A DNA stretch of 64,000 nucleotides from Ignavibacteriales bacterium (GCA_020061465.1 JAGUYG010000020.1:62001-126000); one strand, 5' to 3'. Positions 55,401-61,248 are shown, counted from the stretch's first letter. Notes: a model not told the origin generated them from the letters alone. Numbers and translations: made by a program.

Positions 55401-55410
55401 TGTTGTTATA

Positions 55411-55461
55411 AACCTCCGAGGTTAGTGCTATCGTTTTTACGATGTGAAAACCCCGGAGGTT
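55411..55461 (+). repeat. Stem-loop AACCTCCGAGGTT / AACCCCGGAGGTT
   Basis: AACCTCCGAGGTT at 55411-55423 pairs with AACCCCGGAGGTT at 55449-55461 with one mismatch; an inner ATCG/CGAT pair tops the loop. TTTTAT follows, so it may terminate the preceding gene. Its right arm with ATGTGAAAA recurs inverted at 58638-58657. Confidence 0.6.
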
Positions 55462-55480
55462 TTATACTCAAGCCGACTTG

Positions 55481-55507
55481 TCCGCCGAAGCTTTAAGCGA
55501 AGGCGGA
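55481..55507. repeat. Inverted repeat TCCGCC / GGCGGA
   Basis: TCCGCCGAAGCTT at 55481-55493 and AAGCGAAGGCGGA at 55495-55507 share inverted TCCGCC/GGCGGA arms and an inner GCTT/AAGC. It is a compact dyad between the terminator-like stem-loop and the cassette region. The next 140 bp hold no gene I can support. Confidence 0.45.
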
Positions 55508-55672
55508 TAATTATTAAAAAACTTTTTTATTAGAACTACTTTTGGCGTAGCCATCCCTTCGGGAGAACAAGAAACTATAAACGGAGCTACAAACTAAAAA
55601 ATTGCACAAAAGCCGAATGCGAAAAAAGCAGTTAGCATGAACCGCTGGTTGCACTAAGTCGCTTGCGGCTTA

Positions 55673-55729
55673 GTCCAACACAGGATTATGCCTCAGTGCA
55701 TTTCGGCATGAATCCCTGTAACGTTATAC
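55673..55729 (-). other. 57-bp attC-like recombination site A
   Basis: Read on the minus strand, GTATAAC (R'', 55729 to 55723) starts 5 nt after the stop of the upstream ORF and GTTGGAC (R', 55679 to 55673) ends the site; the latter fits GTTRRRY exactly and the former fits RYYYAAC in 6 of 7. Between them ACAGGATTATGCC (55680-55692) pairs with GGCATGAATCCCTGT (55705-55719) leaving single bulged bases at about 55710 and 55714. Length equals that of classic 57-60-bp integron attC sites. A second hairpin (55648-55679) abuts it. Confidence 0.55.
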
Positions 55730-55734
55730 ATTTT

Positions 55735-56808
55735 TTATTTCCATTTATCCCAGAATCGTTTTGATATTTTATAAATATATTCTTCGATTTCATAAAAAAT
55801 GATTTTTGCATTTTCATCTGCTAATTTCTTTTGCATAAAACCTTGGGCAAAACTCATTTGCAACATTGACAATTCTTGCGTTTCAACGTATTCGATTCTA
55901 TTATTTTCTAATTTGAAAGCCGTTACATCACTTTTTCTATTTATATCAAAAATTTTGGATTTATCTGAATGAATGAAAGCGTTTCTTATATAATCTTTTA
56001 TATGAAATAGATGTTTACGTTCTTCATCATCAATAAATTTTTCATCGTGCAAAGCAACAATAAGATGATAAAGTTGTAGGTCTCCATATTTCTCTTCTGC
56101 TTTTAAACTTGCTTCGCTTAATAATGAAAAATTAGCTCCTTGTTGAGTTTTTCTAATTTCTTGTTCATAATTATTTTTTAAAACAGTTTTTAGACATTCT
56201 TCGAGAGTTACTCCAAGCATAACAATTGCTGTAAGTGAAAGTTCACAAGCTAATGCACGACGTGTTTCCCACAATTTGATATCAATATCGTGAAACTTAG
56301 TTGTGCGATGGCATTTTAGGAATAATTCATTTTCTTTAATACTTTTTGTTGTGTTATTTATAATTTGCTCAATATCAATGTCAATATCATAAAGTTTATC
56401 CTTTGTGTTTTCTAGAATTTTTGAATAGTATTTTTCTAAATTCAACAAAGTATCTTCTATTTTAATTACATCAAAATATTTTACGGAAATTAAGCTCGTA
56501 TAATCTTGTTCTGGTATTTTTATTAACTTATTCTTATAAGAATTTACAATTTTATTAATTACATCATAAATAATTCTATAGTTTAATTCCGTTTGATAAA
56601 TGCCAAAAAATCTTAAGAATATAATAATCCCTACTTCTTCTTTCTTTGGGCTATAATAAGTTATTCTTATCCCTTCATAGACTTTTGATTCAGCAAAAAG
56701 ATTATTAATCTCACTTGTAATGCACTGTTTTATAAAATTGTAAAAATCGAGATTATCTGATTTATTAATTTTATTTAAATGGAAAATTATATTTGAGACA
56801 GCAAACAT
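55735..56808 (-). CDS. Cassette ORF with HEPN-type RX4H motif
   Basis: The 357-aa protein has no signal peptide and is Lys/Ile/Asn-rich, unlike its neighbours. The N-terminal 140 residues are of unknown type. From about residue 190 it is helical: CELSLTAIVMLGVTLEECLKTVL resembles the first helices of HEPN/DUF4145-like proteins (LG..LE..LK), and IRNAFIHSD contains Arg275-X4-His280, the HEPN ribonuclease active-site pattern. HEPN RNases act in toxin-antitoxin and abortive-infection defence. No antitoxin gene is adjacent. No Shine-Dalgarno sequence is seen; the ATG lies 13 nt after the GTTATAC end of site B, as in integron cassettes. Defence function is inferred. Confidence 0.7.
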   Translation of the reverse strand: MFAVSNIIFHLNKINKSDNLDFYNFIKQCITSEINNLFAESKVYEGIRITYYSPKKEEVGIIIFLRFFGIYQTELNYRIIYDVINKIVNSYKNKLIKIPEQDYTSLISVKYFDVIKIEDTLLNLEKYYSKILENTKDKLYDIDIDIEQIINNTTKSIKENELFLKCHRTTKFHDIDIKLWETRRALACELSLTAIVMLGVTLEECLKTVLKNNYEQEIRKTQQGANFSLLSEASLKAEEKYGDLQLYHLIVALHDEKFIDDEERKHLFHIKDYIRNAFIHSDKSKIFDINRKSDVTAFKLENNRIEYVETQELSMLQMSFAQGFMQKKLADENAKIIFYEIEEYIYKISKRFWDKWK

Positions 56809-56821
56809 CTATTTGAAAAAT

Positions 56822-57040
56822 GTATAACGGCGTTGCAAATAACCCGCCGCCCTGAACTGCAATTTTTTTTTATTATTAAAAATATTTAGAACTGTAGCCT
56901 TGCTTATCTTTTCTCGCAAGCAAGGCGGAACAAACTTACATACATAAACAAATTTAAAGAGCAACTTACATAAAACACAAAACTAAAGAACAGCACTCAA
57001 CCCGCTTGACCACGCGGGCGGGTTGATTTGCTGGTTATAT
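56822..57040 (-). other. 219-bp attC-like recombination site B
   Basis: On the minus strand the site runs from ATATAAC (R'', 57040 to 57034) to GTTATAC (R', 56828 to 56822). The inner arms GCAAATAACCCGCC (56835-56848) and GGCGGGTTGATTTGC (57017-57031) form a 14-bp stem with one bulged G at 57025, matching the extrahelical base of attC sites. About 170 nt of variable, partly structured sequence forms the top. The outer boxes pair in 6 of 7 positions. The two spacers between box and stem are unequal (6 and 2 nt), which is atypical. Confidence 0.55.
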
Positions 57041-57055
57041 CTCAAGCAATTCATT

Positions 57056-58231
57056 TTAAAAATCAAATTCATCTTGAGCTTTAATTAAGGTTTTGGGACC
57101 AATTCCTTTAAGTTTGCTTAGATTATCTATAGTAATAATCTTTTCAGATACTCTTAATTTTATAATTTCTTTTGCAATATCACGTTTAACTCCCAATAAA
57201 GATTCAATTTCATCCAAGGAAGCAGAGTTAATATTTATTTTCTGTGAACGAGGTTGGGTTTTACTTATATATTCTATTATATCAGCTAAAACTAAATATA
57301 AATGAAATACTGTTTTTGTTGCTTCAAATTGTTTCAAATTTGCATGAACACCTTTGTTTGAAAGTTTATTTATCTTTTCCAACCAAAATCCTAAATAGTC
57401 TATATGGGATTTAGCAAGCTGCTTATTAGAATCAGAATCAATTGCTTCATCCATGTATGCCCATATTCGGTTTATATAATTATTTTTCCCTAATTCTCTT
57501 CCGTCTTTGTTCTTTTTATCAGTTGGTGGATAAACAATATCTGCTAATCCTTCGATTAACCTTCTACAAGTGGTCAGAGCTTGCGACCACTCTTCATCTT
57601 TCCTACTGTTAACAGATTTGAATGCAAGCATTAATTGTTCTGCTAATTCAGGCGCAATGTCTAATAATTTATCATCAACTTTTTCTCTTAATAAATCAAA
57701 ACTGTTTTTGGGTGTTTCAGAATACTTGAGTTTGTTATAAATTACAGATGCTTTTTGGTGAGCAGCATTGCGCACAAAATTTAGATGGGATAATAAATTT
57801 GATTTATAATATACATTATCATTCCCAACTTTTTTTCTAACTAAATCAGCATACTTTTCTTCAACAAATCCAATATTAATATAGCCCCCACCAGATTCAT
57901 TAACTTTTGCATTTATTTCATCTTGGCTTAAATGATAGTCAAAACTGAGACCTAAATCTTTAAACTGTCTTTTAAGATCTTCTTTCTCTTTTTCATTTTT
58001 CTTGCTTGGATTATTTTGATTTTCAATATGTATTTCTAATAATTTTTTAATTACTGTAGTATAGTTACTATCACCAAGTTGGATGGCACACCATTTTTGT
58101 AAATCATCGTTTTCAATTAGAAAAGCAACACGAGATAATTTTTGTATGGCTGATAGAATACTACCTTTCGGATTTTCTAATACTGAAATAATCTCTTCAA
58201 GTAATTTTAATAAATCCGCCTTTGTCTTCAT
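57056..58231 (-). CDS. AbiTii-like protein with C-terminal helix-hairpin-helix domain
   Basis: The start at 58231 is chosen because AAGGGA lies just upstream and the conserved domain begins at once; an in-frame TTG at 58276 has no such support. Residues about 1-75 (LLKLLEEIISVLENPKGS, IQKLSRVAFLIENDDLQKW) resemble the AbiTii domain of abortive-infection proteins. The middle (WSQALTTCRRLIEGLADIVYPP, YINRIWAYMDEA, SNKGVHANL) follows the pattern found with AbiTii in defence proteins. Residues about 333-391 hold two helix-hairpin-helix units (INSASLDEIESLLGVKRDIA and LSKLKGIGPKTLIKA), which bind DNA backbones non-specifically. It precedes attC-like site B. Phage defence is a likely but unproven role. 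Confidence 0.75.
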   Translation of the reverse strand: MKTKADLLKLLEEIISVLENPKGSILSAIQKLSRVAFLIENDDLQKWCAIQLGDSNYTTVIKKLLEIHIENQNNPSKKNEKEKEDLKRQFKDLGLSFDYHLSQDEINAKVNESGGGYINIGFVEEKYADLVRKKVGNDNVYYKSNLLSHLNFVRNAAHQKASVIYNKLKYSETPKNSFDLLREKVDDKLLDIAPELAEQLMLAFKSVNSRKDEEWSQALTTCRRLIEGLADIVYPPTDKKNKDGRELGKNNYINRIWAYMDEAIDSDSNKQLAKSHIDYLGFWLEKINKLSNKGVHANLKQFEATKTVFHLYLVLADIIEYISKTQPRSQKININSASLDEIESLLGVKRDIAKEIIKLRVSEKIITIDNLSKLKGIGPKTLIKAQDEFDF

Positions 58232-58284
58232 AGTTTCCCTTGAGATATAACTATTAATTGAGCGAATGAAATCCAAACGTATCA

Positions 58285-58322: not shown

Positions 58323-58637
58323 TCTGTTTTTTGTGGTTTTTCATCCTAAGTTCTTTTATCTAATTCTTTTATAACAATTTCCTTTAATCCAAGCCGGTAA
58401 ATTTAACAGATATTTCATTCCGCCTAATAATCTAGCACTCCGTCCTGGTAATTCTGGCTTGCTCACATTACACCGCAGTAAAAGATTTTATGTAAATAAT
58501 AAAACTCATCATTCATATCCCTCTTACCAACTTTACAATGTTTTATCCCCAACTGCCAATAGAAGAGCGGTTTCAACTTAATAAATTTTTTTCTCTTTCG
58601 CCACATCTCTTTTTTGTCGGTGTTAAAAAAGTTTAAA

Positions 58638-58657
58638 AACCTCCGGGGTTTTCATCG
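58638..58657 (-). repeat. Inverted copy of the AACCTCC element
   Basis: AACCTCCGGGGTTTTCATCG matches the reverse complement of the right arm and inner loop of the 55411-55461 element with one 2-nt gap (CACATCG there, CATCG here). Confidence 0.6.
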
Positions 58658-58704
58658 TTTAAGTCGACTCCGCTAACCTCAGCGGTTTCAATGCAAGTAT
58701 GTGG

Positions 58705-58884: not shown

Positions 58885-61248
58885 ATGAAAGAAAAGATAG
58901 CTGTCTTATTAGTTCTTATTATTTTTAATTCAGAATTTTATTCTCAAACAATACCGCCCAAAAGAGAATTCAGAGGTGCGTGGGTAGCATCGGTAGTAAA
59001 CCTCGATTGGCCTTCATCTCCTTTCTTAACAACATCTGCACAGAAGGAACAATTAGTTTCTATTTTCGAAGACTTGAAGAACATGGGTATAAATGCGGTG
59101 ATTTTTCAGATAAGACCTGAATGCGATGCACTATATAACTCATCTTATGAACCGTGGTCGTATTGGCTGACGGGAAGTCAAGGTTCGCCGCCAAATCCGT
59201 ATTATGATCCGTTAGAATTCGCTGTGGAAGAGGCACACAAAAGAGGAATGGAATTGCATGCGTGGTTCAATCCATATCGTGCCGTAAGAAGTGTGGGATC
59301 GTTTTCAATCTCATCGCAGCATGTAACTTACCAGCATCCGGATTGGATTTTGGCATTCGGCAATCTTCGAATTTTAAATCCGGGATTACCTCAGGTGCGC
59401 GACTATAATACCGCAGTAATAATGGATGTAGTGCGCAGATATGACATCGACGGTGTTCATTTTGATGACTACTTTTATCCTTATCCTCCGGATCAAATTA
59501 CAAACGAGGATGCCGTTACTTTTGCCGAATATTCTCGCGGCTTCACAAATATTGCTGATTGGCGAAGGGATAATGTTAACCAGCAAATCAAGCAAATAAA
59601 TGACAGCATCATGGCAGTAAAGCCTTATGTGAAATTTGGTATCAGTCCATTCGGAATTTGGAGAAATGGAGTTCCGCCGGGGATTATTGGTATGGATGCT
59701 TACAGCCAAATTTACGCGGACCCGATTACATGGCTTCATGATAGGTCGGTTGATTATTTGACTCCACAATTATATTGGAGAATCGGCGGCAGTCAGGATT
59801 ATTCGAAGCTTATGCCCTGGTGGGCTGATTCAACCTATGCAAATGAACGGCACCTTTATACGGGACATATTCTAAATACAAGTTTTTCTACAAGCGAGCT
59901 GCCCAATCAGTTAAAGTTAAATAGAAATAATTCAAAAGTATCAGGCAGCATTTGGTTTCGAGCAGATTTATTGAGAAGTAACACACTAACATTCAGAGAT
60001 TCTCTCCGACAGAATTATTACAAATACAAAGCATTACCGCCTGTTATGGAGTGGAAAGATGTATTACCACCCAACCCACCACTAAACGTTAGGTATGAGA
60101 GGTTGGAAGGCAGTGGGATTTCAGCTATAACGTGGGATCTTCCTCAAACGGCAAGCGACGGCGACAGCGCATTCAGATATGTTGTATATCGGTTCAATCA
60201 AATTAATATTCTTCAAGAAGATATTGACGATCCCAAAAATTTGATAGAAATTGAAAATAAAAGAAATCATGTTCCATTTTCAGAATCGACTGCAAGCGGA
60301 CCATATTTTTATGTAATTACTTCATTAGATAGAAATAATAATGAAAGCTTAATTAGTAATGTACTTGAGATTACTCTACCTTCGGTTCCGTTATTAAGTT
60401 ACCCGATTAGCGGAGCTAACGATGTAACTGATACTGTGGTGGTCAAATGGAATTATGCAGAAGGTTCTTCCTCGTATCGATTTCAACTCTCTCCCGATTC
60501 AACATTTTCAACATCAATGGAACAAGATGTATCCGGCATTACCGATACATTCAGGATTGTAACTAATCTGCAGGGACAAAAACTTTATTATTGGAGGATA
60601 CAATCGAGTAATATTTCGGGCGTCAGCGAGTTTTCGGATGCATATAATTTTTTTACTGCATTTCCTTCAGCTCCTAATCTAATATCTCCGGCACATGCAA
60701 CATTAGATGTACCGCTGAATCCTACCTTGAGCTGGGAAAAATCATACGCTGCAGAAGGTTATCAAATGCAGCTTTCCATCAGCTTAACTTTCAGTTCCGC
60801 AACCACACTTCTTGATACGGCAGGTATAGTTGATACTTCAATTATGCTTAGTAATCTTACTGCAAATAGAAATCACTTCTGGCGTATAAGAGCAGCAAAT
60901 CAATTTGGAAGCAGTCCATGGTCTAATACTTTTGGATTCAGAACAACCTCGGTTGTATCAGTTGAGAAAGAGAATATAATTCCTGAGAGTTTTGCATTAG
61001 ACCAAAATTATCCGAACCCGTTCAATCCGATTACAACAATCGGATTTCAACTGCCAAACCAAGCATACATTACATTAAAAATATACGATGTTTTGGGAAG
61101 GGAAGTTGCAACAATTGCCGATGGAGTGTATCCGGCGGGTCACTATACAATTAATTTTGATGCTTCTGGTTTATCGACCGGCATATATTACTATCGAATG
61201 ATTGCAGGTGATTTTAATATGGTTAGAAAGATGATTATAACGAAGTGA
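58885..61248 (+). CDS. T9SS-exported family-10-like glycosylhydrolase (GHL10, DUF187)
   Basis: The 787-aa protein has a signal peptide, then a GHL10 (YngK-like) TIM barrel at about 22-390: FRGAWVASVVNLDWPS, LKNMGINAVIFQIRPECDA, GMELHAWFNPYRA, YDIDGVHFDDYFYPYP and PFGIWRNG. The DDYF Asp pair is the conserved acidic site of the family, which acts on cell-surface or peptidoglycan-type glycans. Two or three fibronectin-like modules follow (about 395-490, 500-590, 600-690). The C terminus is a T9SS type A sorting domain (NYPNPFNPITTIGF, IYDVLGREVATIA, RKMIITK). Substrate is not known. Confidence 0.88.
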   Translation: MKEKIAVLLVLIIFNSEFYSQTIPPKREFRGAWVASVVNLDWPSSPFLTTSAQKEQLVSIFEDLKNMGINAVIFQIRPECDALYNSSYEPWSYWLTGSQGSPPNPYYDPLEFAVEEAHKRGMELHAWFNPYRAVRSVGSFSISSQHVTYQHPDWILAFGNLRILNPGLPQVRDYNTAVIMDVVRRYDIDGVHFDDYFYPYPPDQITNEDAVTFAEYSRGFTNIADWRRDNVNQQIKQINDSIMAVKPYVKFGISPFGIWRNGVPPGIIGMDAYSQIYADPITWLHDRSVDYLTPQLYWRIGGSQDYSKLMPWWADSTYANERHLYTGHILNTSFSTSELPNQLKLNRNNSKVSGSIWFRADLLRSNTLTFRDSLRQNYYKYKALPPVMEWKDVLPPNPPLNVRYERLEGSGISAITWDLPQTASDGDSAFRYVVYRFNQINILQEDIDDPKNLIEIENKRNHVPFSESTASGPYFYVITSLDRNNNESLISNVLEITLPSVPLLSYPISGANDVTDTVVVKWNYAEGSSSYRFQLSPDSTFSTSMEQDVSGITDTFRIVTNLQGQKLYYWRIQSSNISGVSEFSDAYNFFTAFPSAPNLISPAHATLDVPLNPTLSWEKSYAAEGYQMQLSISLTFSSATTLLDTAGIVDTSIMLSNLTANRNHFWRIRAANQFGSSPWSNTFGFRTTSVVSVEKENIIPESFALDQNYPNPFNPITTIGFQLPNQAYITLKIYDVLGREVATIADGVYPAGHYTINFDASGLSTGIYYYRMIAGDFNMVRKMIITK

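Follow-up and report, generated by a model that had tools for sequence, protein, structure and literature searches.

In a 64,000-nucleotide stretch of an Ignavibacteriales bacterium (GCA_020061465.1, JAGUYG010000020.1:62001-126000; referred to below as the window), two minus-strand open reading frames (ORFs) sit amid plus-strand genes. Judged by their sequence, these ORFs, A and B, are integron gene cassettes, and the whole minus-strand segment from 58625 to 55481 is very likely a two-gene cassette array whose own integrase gene has been lost. With the same high confidence we interpret the segment as the remains of a reverse-type chromosomal integron, one in which the integrase gene (intI) is transcribed toward the attachment site (attI) and the cassettes, and from which intI has been deleted. 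Along the minus strand it holds a leader, a stump of intI, an attI-like site, cassette A with a full attC site, and cassette B with a truncated one (Table 1). Cassette clusters without an integrase are common; their formation is rarely visible.

Table 1. Features of the array, given as positions in the window
Feature	Position	Strand	Description
Leader	58450-58625	minus	Conserved DNA, also found ahead of the intact intI of contig C114 and overlapping its start
intI start remnant	58450-58466	minus	GTGAGCAAGCCAGAATT, against GTGGACAAGCCAAAATT of the intact intI (L026, 13411-13427)
attI-like site	58252-58274	minus	CTCAATTAATA before GTT; insertion point of cassette A
Cassette A	56829-58251	minus	From its start, GTTATATCTCAAG, to the base preceding the next GTT
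ORF A	57056-58231	minus	391 amino acids, inside cassette A
attC1	56821-57041	minus	R'' 57040-57034, R' GTTATAC 56828-56822; full site with L''/L' stem and extrahelical C
Cassette B	55680-56828	minus	Starts with GTTATACATTTTT; 3' limit according to the short-attC reading (R' GTTGGAC at 55679)
ORF B	55735-56808	minus	357 amino acids, inside cassette B
attC2	55481-55729	minus	R'' 55729-55723, then ~73 bp, then a family-type remnant (55656-55481) without the L'-R' end

A preliminary description of the window had recognized the cassette geometry, and its elements are present: both ORFs, R''-like TATAAC boxes ending at 57034 (cassette A) and 55723 (cassette B), and an R' box 13 nt upstream of the ORF B start codon. 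It had also placed an attC-like box within 15 nt of each stop; both boxes exist, and that of ORF A starts ~15 nt past the stop, at the limit of the statement. The start of cassette A, GTTATATCTCAAG (58251), is complementary over 13 of 13 bp to its own R'' behind the stop, CTTGAGATATAAC (end 57034), and the start of cassette B, GTTATACATTTTT (56828), is equally complementary (13/13 bp) to its own, AAAAATGTATAAC (end 55723). Once a cassette is excised as a circle, its start and its R'' box serve as the outer arms of a single attC; complementarity of this kind is therefore predicted for cassettes but not for ordinary genes. GTT...AAC inverted repeats of at least 13 bp at cassette spacing were limited to these two in the entire window, compared to an expectation from shuffled sequence of ~0.2 per strand, and the two are adjacent, with a common junction.

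To identify attC sites, we used a covariance model (R1) built on an alignment (A2) of 15 attC sequences taken from the host genome and the integrons of eight relatives; the attC search of the family covered 26 genomes. R1 found exactly two sites in the window, at 57041-56821 (E = 1.6e-25) and 55655-55529 (E = 1.7e-5). Because attC1 was among the training sites, the search was repeated without it. Held-out nhmmer models that contained no window sequence returned the same two sites (E = 5e-20 and 2e-11), as did a model made from the relatives' sites only (attC1, 5e-16; attC2, 7e-12), and the next-best window match in the held-out searches had an E value of 0.27 or worse. Pairing of R'' with R' and of L'' with L', with an extrahelical C, was reflected in 41 two-sided covarying cells, against 17.8 after shuffling and a maximum of 6 in slid controls. 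A search of the window against Rfam gave no match. When folded single-stranded, the bottom strand of attC1 was more stable than its shuffles (z = -4.1), and its minimum-energy fold consisted of local hairpins, not long-range arms. By its sequence, attC1 looks functional.

The second site has a more complicated structure. The preliminary description had ended the array at a downstream R' box, GTTGGAC (55679-55673), and this point needs correction, as family-type attC DNA runs on to ~55481. This remnant is 94% identical over 145 bp to the complete attC of contig C115, relative to which its last ~70 nt (L' and R') are absent; because such a similar full site exists elsewhere in the genome, we conclude that attC2 continues past the box and is truncated. 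The ~73 bp behind the R'' of cassette B, in which GTTGGAC lies, may represent either a short attC that terminates at that box plus an ORF-less mini-cassette, or an insertion that includes the box. On the short reading (a classic 57-nt site up to GTTGGAC), 51 of 500 shuffles (~10%) folded as well or better, and it is only on this reading that attC2 would look functional by sequence.

Among 395 genomes of the phylum, ORF B has one homologue (70% amino acid identity), in a genome of the same order and another family (G052). DNA similarity between the two cassettes extends from the GTTATACA core to ...TGTATAAC, the same ends as in the window, and falls off beyond the GTT and AAC cores, except for an attC-type arm just upstream, where an attC (E = 2e-18) directly precedes the G052 copy. 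The preliminary description had named two grounds for abandoning the cassette interpretation, a lack of attC matches and ragged boundaries in syntenic genomes; the attC models do match, and the shared ends are precise. Divergence between the two ORF B homologues (dN, 0.18; dS, 2.0) indicates purifying selection on ORF B. No ORF B homologue was found in viral contigs or plasmids. Transposase DNA borders the G052 copy (L114, contig C169): a transposase-like frame lies upstream of it, and an insertion-like repeat sequence immediately follows its R''.

Homologues of ORF A are more widespread. At 53 to 57% identity they occur on an Alteromonas plasmid and in seven sources among genome contigs (Geobacter, Geobacteraceae, Methylobacter, Paraglaciecola, Kushneria, Chromobacterium, and a Moraxellaceae metagenome-assembled genome). 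We scored a cassette signature where a GTT start was complementary over 8 to 9 positions to an R'' past the stop. The signature was present in seven of the eight genomes with readable flanks, the exception being Chromobacterium, while 4 of 50 control ORFs reached 8 complementary positions; attC-like DNA also visibly follows several of the homologues, for example in Paraglaciecola and Kushneria. Further homologues lie on viral or prophage contigs (L125 to L131), and neither these nor the Chromobacterium copy carried the signature where the test was applicable. On one of these contigs (L125, 3001-4182), the homologue sits among phage tail- and baseplate-like genes, a typical cargo position, without an attC. 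Inverted repeats of 11 bp at cassette spacing do arise by chance, about two per strand, and the attC-like boxes could in principle be chance palindromes beside two ordinary genes. We regard this explanation as already refuted by the held-out model matches and by the precise cassette ends shared with another family, and the cassette status of homologues in other phyla argues against it as well.

The cassette region starts at 58251, and integron-derived DNA reaches ~58625. No IntI match was found in the window, as the preliminary description had stated, and its term "integrase-less" is correct locally only: by sequence, the host genome (G000; 4.2 Mb in 122 contigs) keeps an intact IntI on another contig, and the array itself keeps an attI-like site and an intI stump. 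This integrase, the one intact copy in the genome, lies at C114:13411-14373 and scores 439 bits against TIGR02249 (cut-off, 265). The window leader is 81% identical over 86 bp to C114:13343-13427 and 79% identical over 105 bp to the corresponding DNA of contig C23. Past the start codon, resemblance to the intact intI fades after ~6 to 9 codons. A tblastn search of the window gave no IntI remnant; the stump is below the length that a protein search can pick up and shows itself in DNA comparison only. The attI-like site is 91% identical over 23 bp to that of C23. The attI of C23 is in turn 87% identical over 68 bp to that of contig C24, and both resemble the DNA just 3' of intI in relatives (84% over 86 bp between L057 and C24). 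In these relatives (L057, L047, L061, and L067), intI is followed on its 3' side and on its own strand by attI and attC, which is the reverse layout; for the window we infer that layout from the order of leader, stump, attI-like site, and cassettes. Across the window leader and 10 aligned copies, a strongly conserved core ends in a Shine-Dalgarno-like AAGAGGG ahead of the ATG, and a short frame in the window leader, MNDEFYYLHKIFYCGVM, stops overlapping the intI start, which suggests a leader peptide. A simple promoter scan produced no more matches than were found in shuffles.

The window locus is one of about a dozen related integron platforms in this genome. R1 gave 30 attC matches genome-wide at E ≤ 0.1 (23 of them at E ≤ 1e-6) on ~14 contigs, and the leader is present in 13 copies; a related leader query found none in the other 79 genomes of the family, 26 of whose 80 genomes match TIGR02249 at E ≤ 1e-60 (24 above the cut-off). 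What follows the leader differs between copies. There is a full intI at C114, an IntI C-terminal stump at C23 (a 71-amino-acid frame) and, by alignment, at C62, C68, and C82, residues 2 to 24 of IntI at C43, a few intI codons in the window and at C113, and no recognized intI remnant at C24, C85, or C116. The contiguous order of leader, attI, and cassettes without an intact intI occurs in the window, at C23, and at C24. C85 and C113 have a leader and cassettes with a different junction sequence, and several further copies run into contig ends. That the extra loci share the leader, and some of them attI, points to copied platforms. C114 ends 66 bp past the intI stop, so its own attI and array are unassembled; we also considered whether C114 is a long cassette array and rejected this, as it holds ordinary genes upstream of intI and then the contig end. 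Directly upstream of the intact intI, transposase-like ORFs (L026, 11954-13418) stand in place of the leader's 5' half, with a possible effect on intI expression.

These data allowed us to weigh two other origins for the array. The first is that an integrase acting in trans inserted the cassettes at a secondary, attG-like site beside a pre-existing repeat, so that no platform ever stood here. There is a precedent in Xanthomonas, where attC clusters without an integron integrase (CALINs) occupy multiple loci apart from the integron itself (PMC12444791), and the shortness of the attI-like match (23 bp) would suit such an event. However, a correctly oriented leader with an intI start codon lies directly upstream, and at other loci of the genome this leader is followed by intI or by stumps of it, which makes off-target insertion improbable. 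The second is that assembly split or misjoined part of the C114 integron. The abrupt end of C114 and the several leader copies at contig ends are compatible with this, but the array lies inside a contig of 164,733 bp, flanked on both sides by coding genes, and its leader differs by ~20% from that of C114; we consider an assembly effect very improbable. Three features nevertheless weigh against our preferred interpretation, a platform that lost intI: the brevity of the attI match, the few codons left in the stump, and the truncation of attC2, as a result of which cassette B may no longer excise as a single cassette. The array holds one full and one truncated attC, and the IntegronFinder 2 default for a CALIN is at least two sites.

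Under the preferred interpretation, a full platform (leader, intI, attI, and cassettes) would once have stood at the window locus, and intI would have been deleted in place, leaving the array beside the former intI leader. Because the attI match in the window is short and its stump a few codons long, this deletion is deduced from the paralogues. Both cassette genes might then be expressed from the leader as one minus-strand unit, and the IntI of C114 could still recombine attC1 in trans. We speculated that the genome as a whole could be one distributed integron, in which about a dozen paralogous leader-attI platforms lost intI independently and one intact integrase serves them in trans; as a complete scheme we hold this to be rather unlikely. 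Since intI and the cassettes are co-directional, each deletion of intI would fuse cassettes to the intI leader and promoter. If so, a silent cassette store would become several separately expressed defence loci, and if one integrase does serve many platforms, cassette arrays would be expressible from several loci.

We next considered what the cassettes carry. The preliminary description had called the cargo defence-like (AbiTii-like/HhH and HEPN-motif proteins), a view that domain and motif evidence supports. ORF A consists of an AbiTii-like N terminus (PADLOC AbiTii, E = 3.5e-5), a c2405/DUF4145-type HEPN-like middle, and a ComEA-type HhH C terminus (PF12836, 41.9 bits; cut-off, 27). The middle region carries the motif NKGVHA, whose H296 is invariant in 11 sequences, with no R at the expected spacing, and one ORF A homologue matches DUF4145 at E = 0.005. 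Proteins joining AbiTii to a c2405 HEPN domain with a conserved H and no R, a few with a C-terminal HhH, were tabulated in 2013 (PMC3710099). ORF A has the same domain order, keeps the HEPN H, and lacks the R, and we see no real difference; it appears to fit this already described architecture, to which cassette membership across phyla is an added fact. In such a protein, an AbiTii sensor would be joined to a HEPN-like and DNA-binding HhH module.

ORF B contains R275-x4-H280 (RNAFIH) and, upstream, E203-x3-K207 (EECLK), both retained in the G052 homologue. This agrees with the pattern of HEPN RNases, in which the R of Rx4-6H is followed by a polar residue and Ex3[KR] lies upstream, and ORF B is probably a HEPN RNase that would act by RNA cleavage. 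A HEPN family from integron cassettes, represented by PDB 3JRT, has been listed (PMC3710099). ORF B is likewise a HEPN-motif protein in an integron cassette, but it has no detectable match to a PDB chain and has an extra N-terminal region of ~150 amino acids. Several results count against these assignments. The AbiTii match of ORF A (PF18864, 22.6 bits) is below the Pfam gathering score of 27.6, and its structure model (pLDDT, 82) has no significant fold match in PDB. ORF B has no match in Pfam, PADLOC, NCBIfam, or PDB, and its AlphaFold model is poor (pLDDT, 44) and unusable.

Given the known architecture, the HEPN motifs, the reports of defence genes in integrons, and the neighbouring defence cassettes, defence appears to be the likeliest role of both cassette genes, with each ORF possibly acting as a single-gene, abortive-infection-like anti-phage function. 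Alternatively, the cassettes may be genuine and their genes serve other roles, for example as toxins or stress-dormancy RNases that stabilize the array. Such roles would change the reading of the cargo and leave our explanation of the array intact; a stress-dormancy role has been proposed for integron HEPNs (PMC3710099). The AbiTii domain of ORF A, the homologues borne on viral and prophage contigs, and the known defence genes in other cassettes of the same genome speak against it, and we consider it a plausible minority view. Several other cassettes of the genome can be described. On C113 (L070, 7958-11453), a GajA and GajB Gabija-like pair (E = 9e-102 and 2e-78) forms one 3.4-kb two-gene cassette between two attC sites. 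The cassette ORF 5' of the attC at C68:20097-20262 (minus strand; L102) encodes a DUF1883-TIR protein with a ThsB-like TIR, whose best PADLOC match is the candidate system PDC-S66 (E = 1e-73). Genes resembling ParE toxins and MqsA/helix-turn-helix antitoxins lie directly 5' of attC on C96 and C30 (L104 and L098).

The preliminary description had supposed that this pairing of cargo genes was undescribed, which is a weak claim. Both the AbiTii-HEPN(c2405)-HhH architecture and integron HEPNs were tabulated in 2013 (PMC3710099), and studies from 2025, cited in PMC12444791 as references 91-93, reported that the integrons of Vibrio and mobile integrons are libraries of anti-phage genes. Cassettes, CALINs, reverse integrons, defence cassettes, HEPN cassettes, and both cargo types are already known. 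CALINs have been proposed to be degraded integrons, and the IntegronFinder 2 study lists Chlorobi and Ignavibacteriae among the groups that have complete integrons (PMC9024848). Like a CALIN, the window array consists of attC-bounded cassettes with no intI nearby, but it retains the leader, the intI start stump, and the attI-like site, so that a route of decay is visible, and has only one full and one truncated attC. It would share the reverse layout with Treponema chromosomal integrons, of which those of T. phagedenis include remnants without intI (PMC3607928), but its host belongs to a different lineage and has longer attC sites (~190 to 220 nt) and about a dozen paralogous platforms. The multilocus Xanthomonas CALINs also lie at several loci away from intI, as here, whereas the extra loci there are attC clusters only (PMC12444791) and those of our genome have a common leader and, in some cases, a common attI. 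The seemingly new element is how many platforms within a single genome have lost the integrase; among open-licence papers, we found none describing a genome in which the leader platform exists in about a dozen paralogous copies that have lost the integrase to different degrees. Intermediate states stand side by side: intI is intact in one copy, and elsewhere reduced to a C-terminal stump, to 24 N-terminal residues, or to a few codons. The presence of the AbiTii-HEPN-HhH gene as a cassette in several phyla supports the idea that integrons carry defence genes beyond Vibrio.

Some minor observations concern the surroundings of the array and its sites. One family genome (L147/G028) preserves the order of the gene at 58,885 and def, and its upstream side lacks an integron. 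Palindromic repeats of the AACCTCCGGGGTT type flank the array at 55410-55463 and 58636-58688 as a 55-bp inverted repeat (78%), and they adjoin several other leader copies too (L027, 4585-4637; L077, near 4950); they are a possible route for platform copying. Finally, a palindromic element of ~165 bp resembling a miniature inverted-repeat transposable element (GAGACTGTCGAAAAAGT...ACTTTTTCGACAGNCTC) lies directly after the R'' AAC at attC sites of C24, C85, C113, C115, and C68 (L077, L073, L070, L097, and L102), where the AAC appears to be duplicated, and may target attC.
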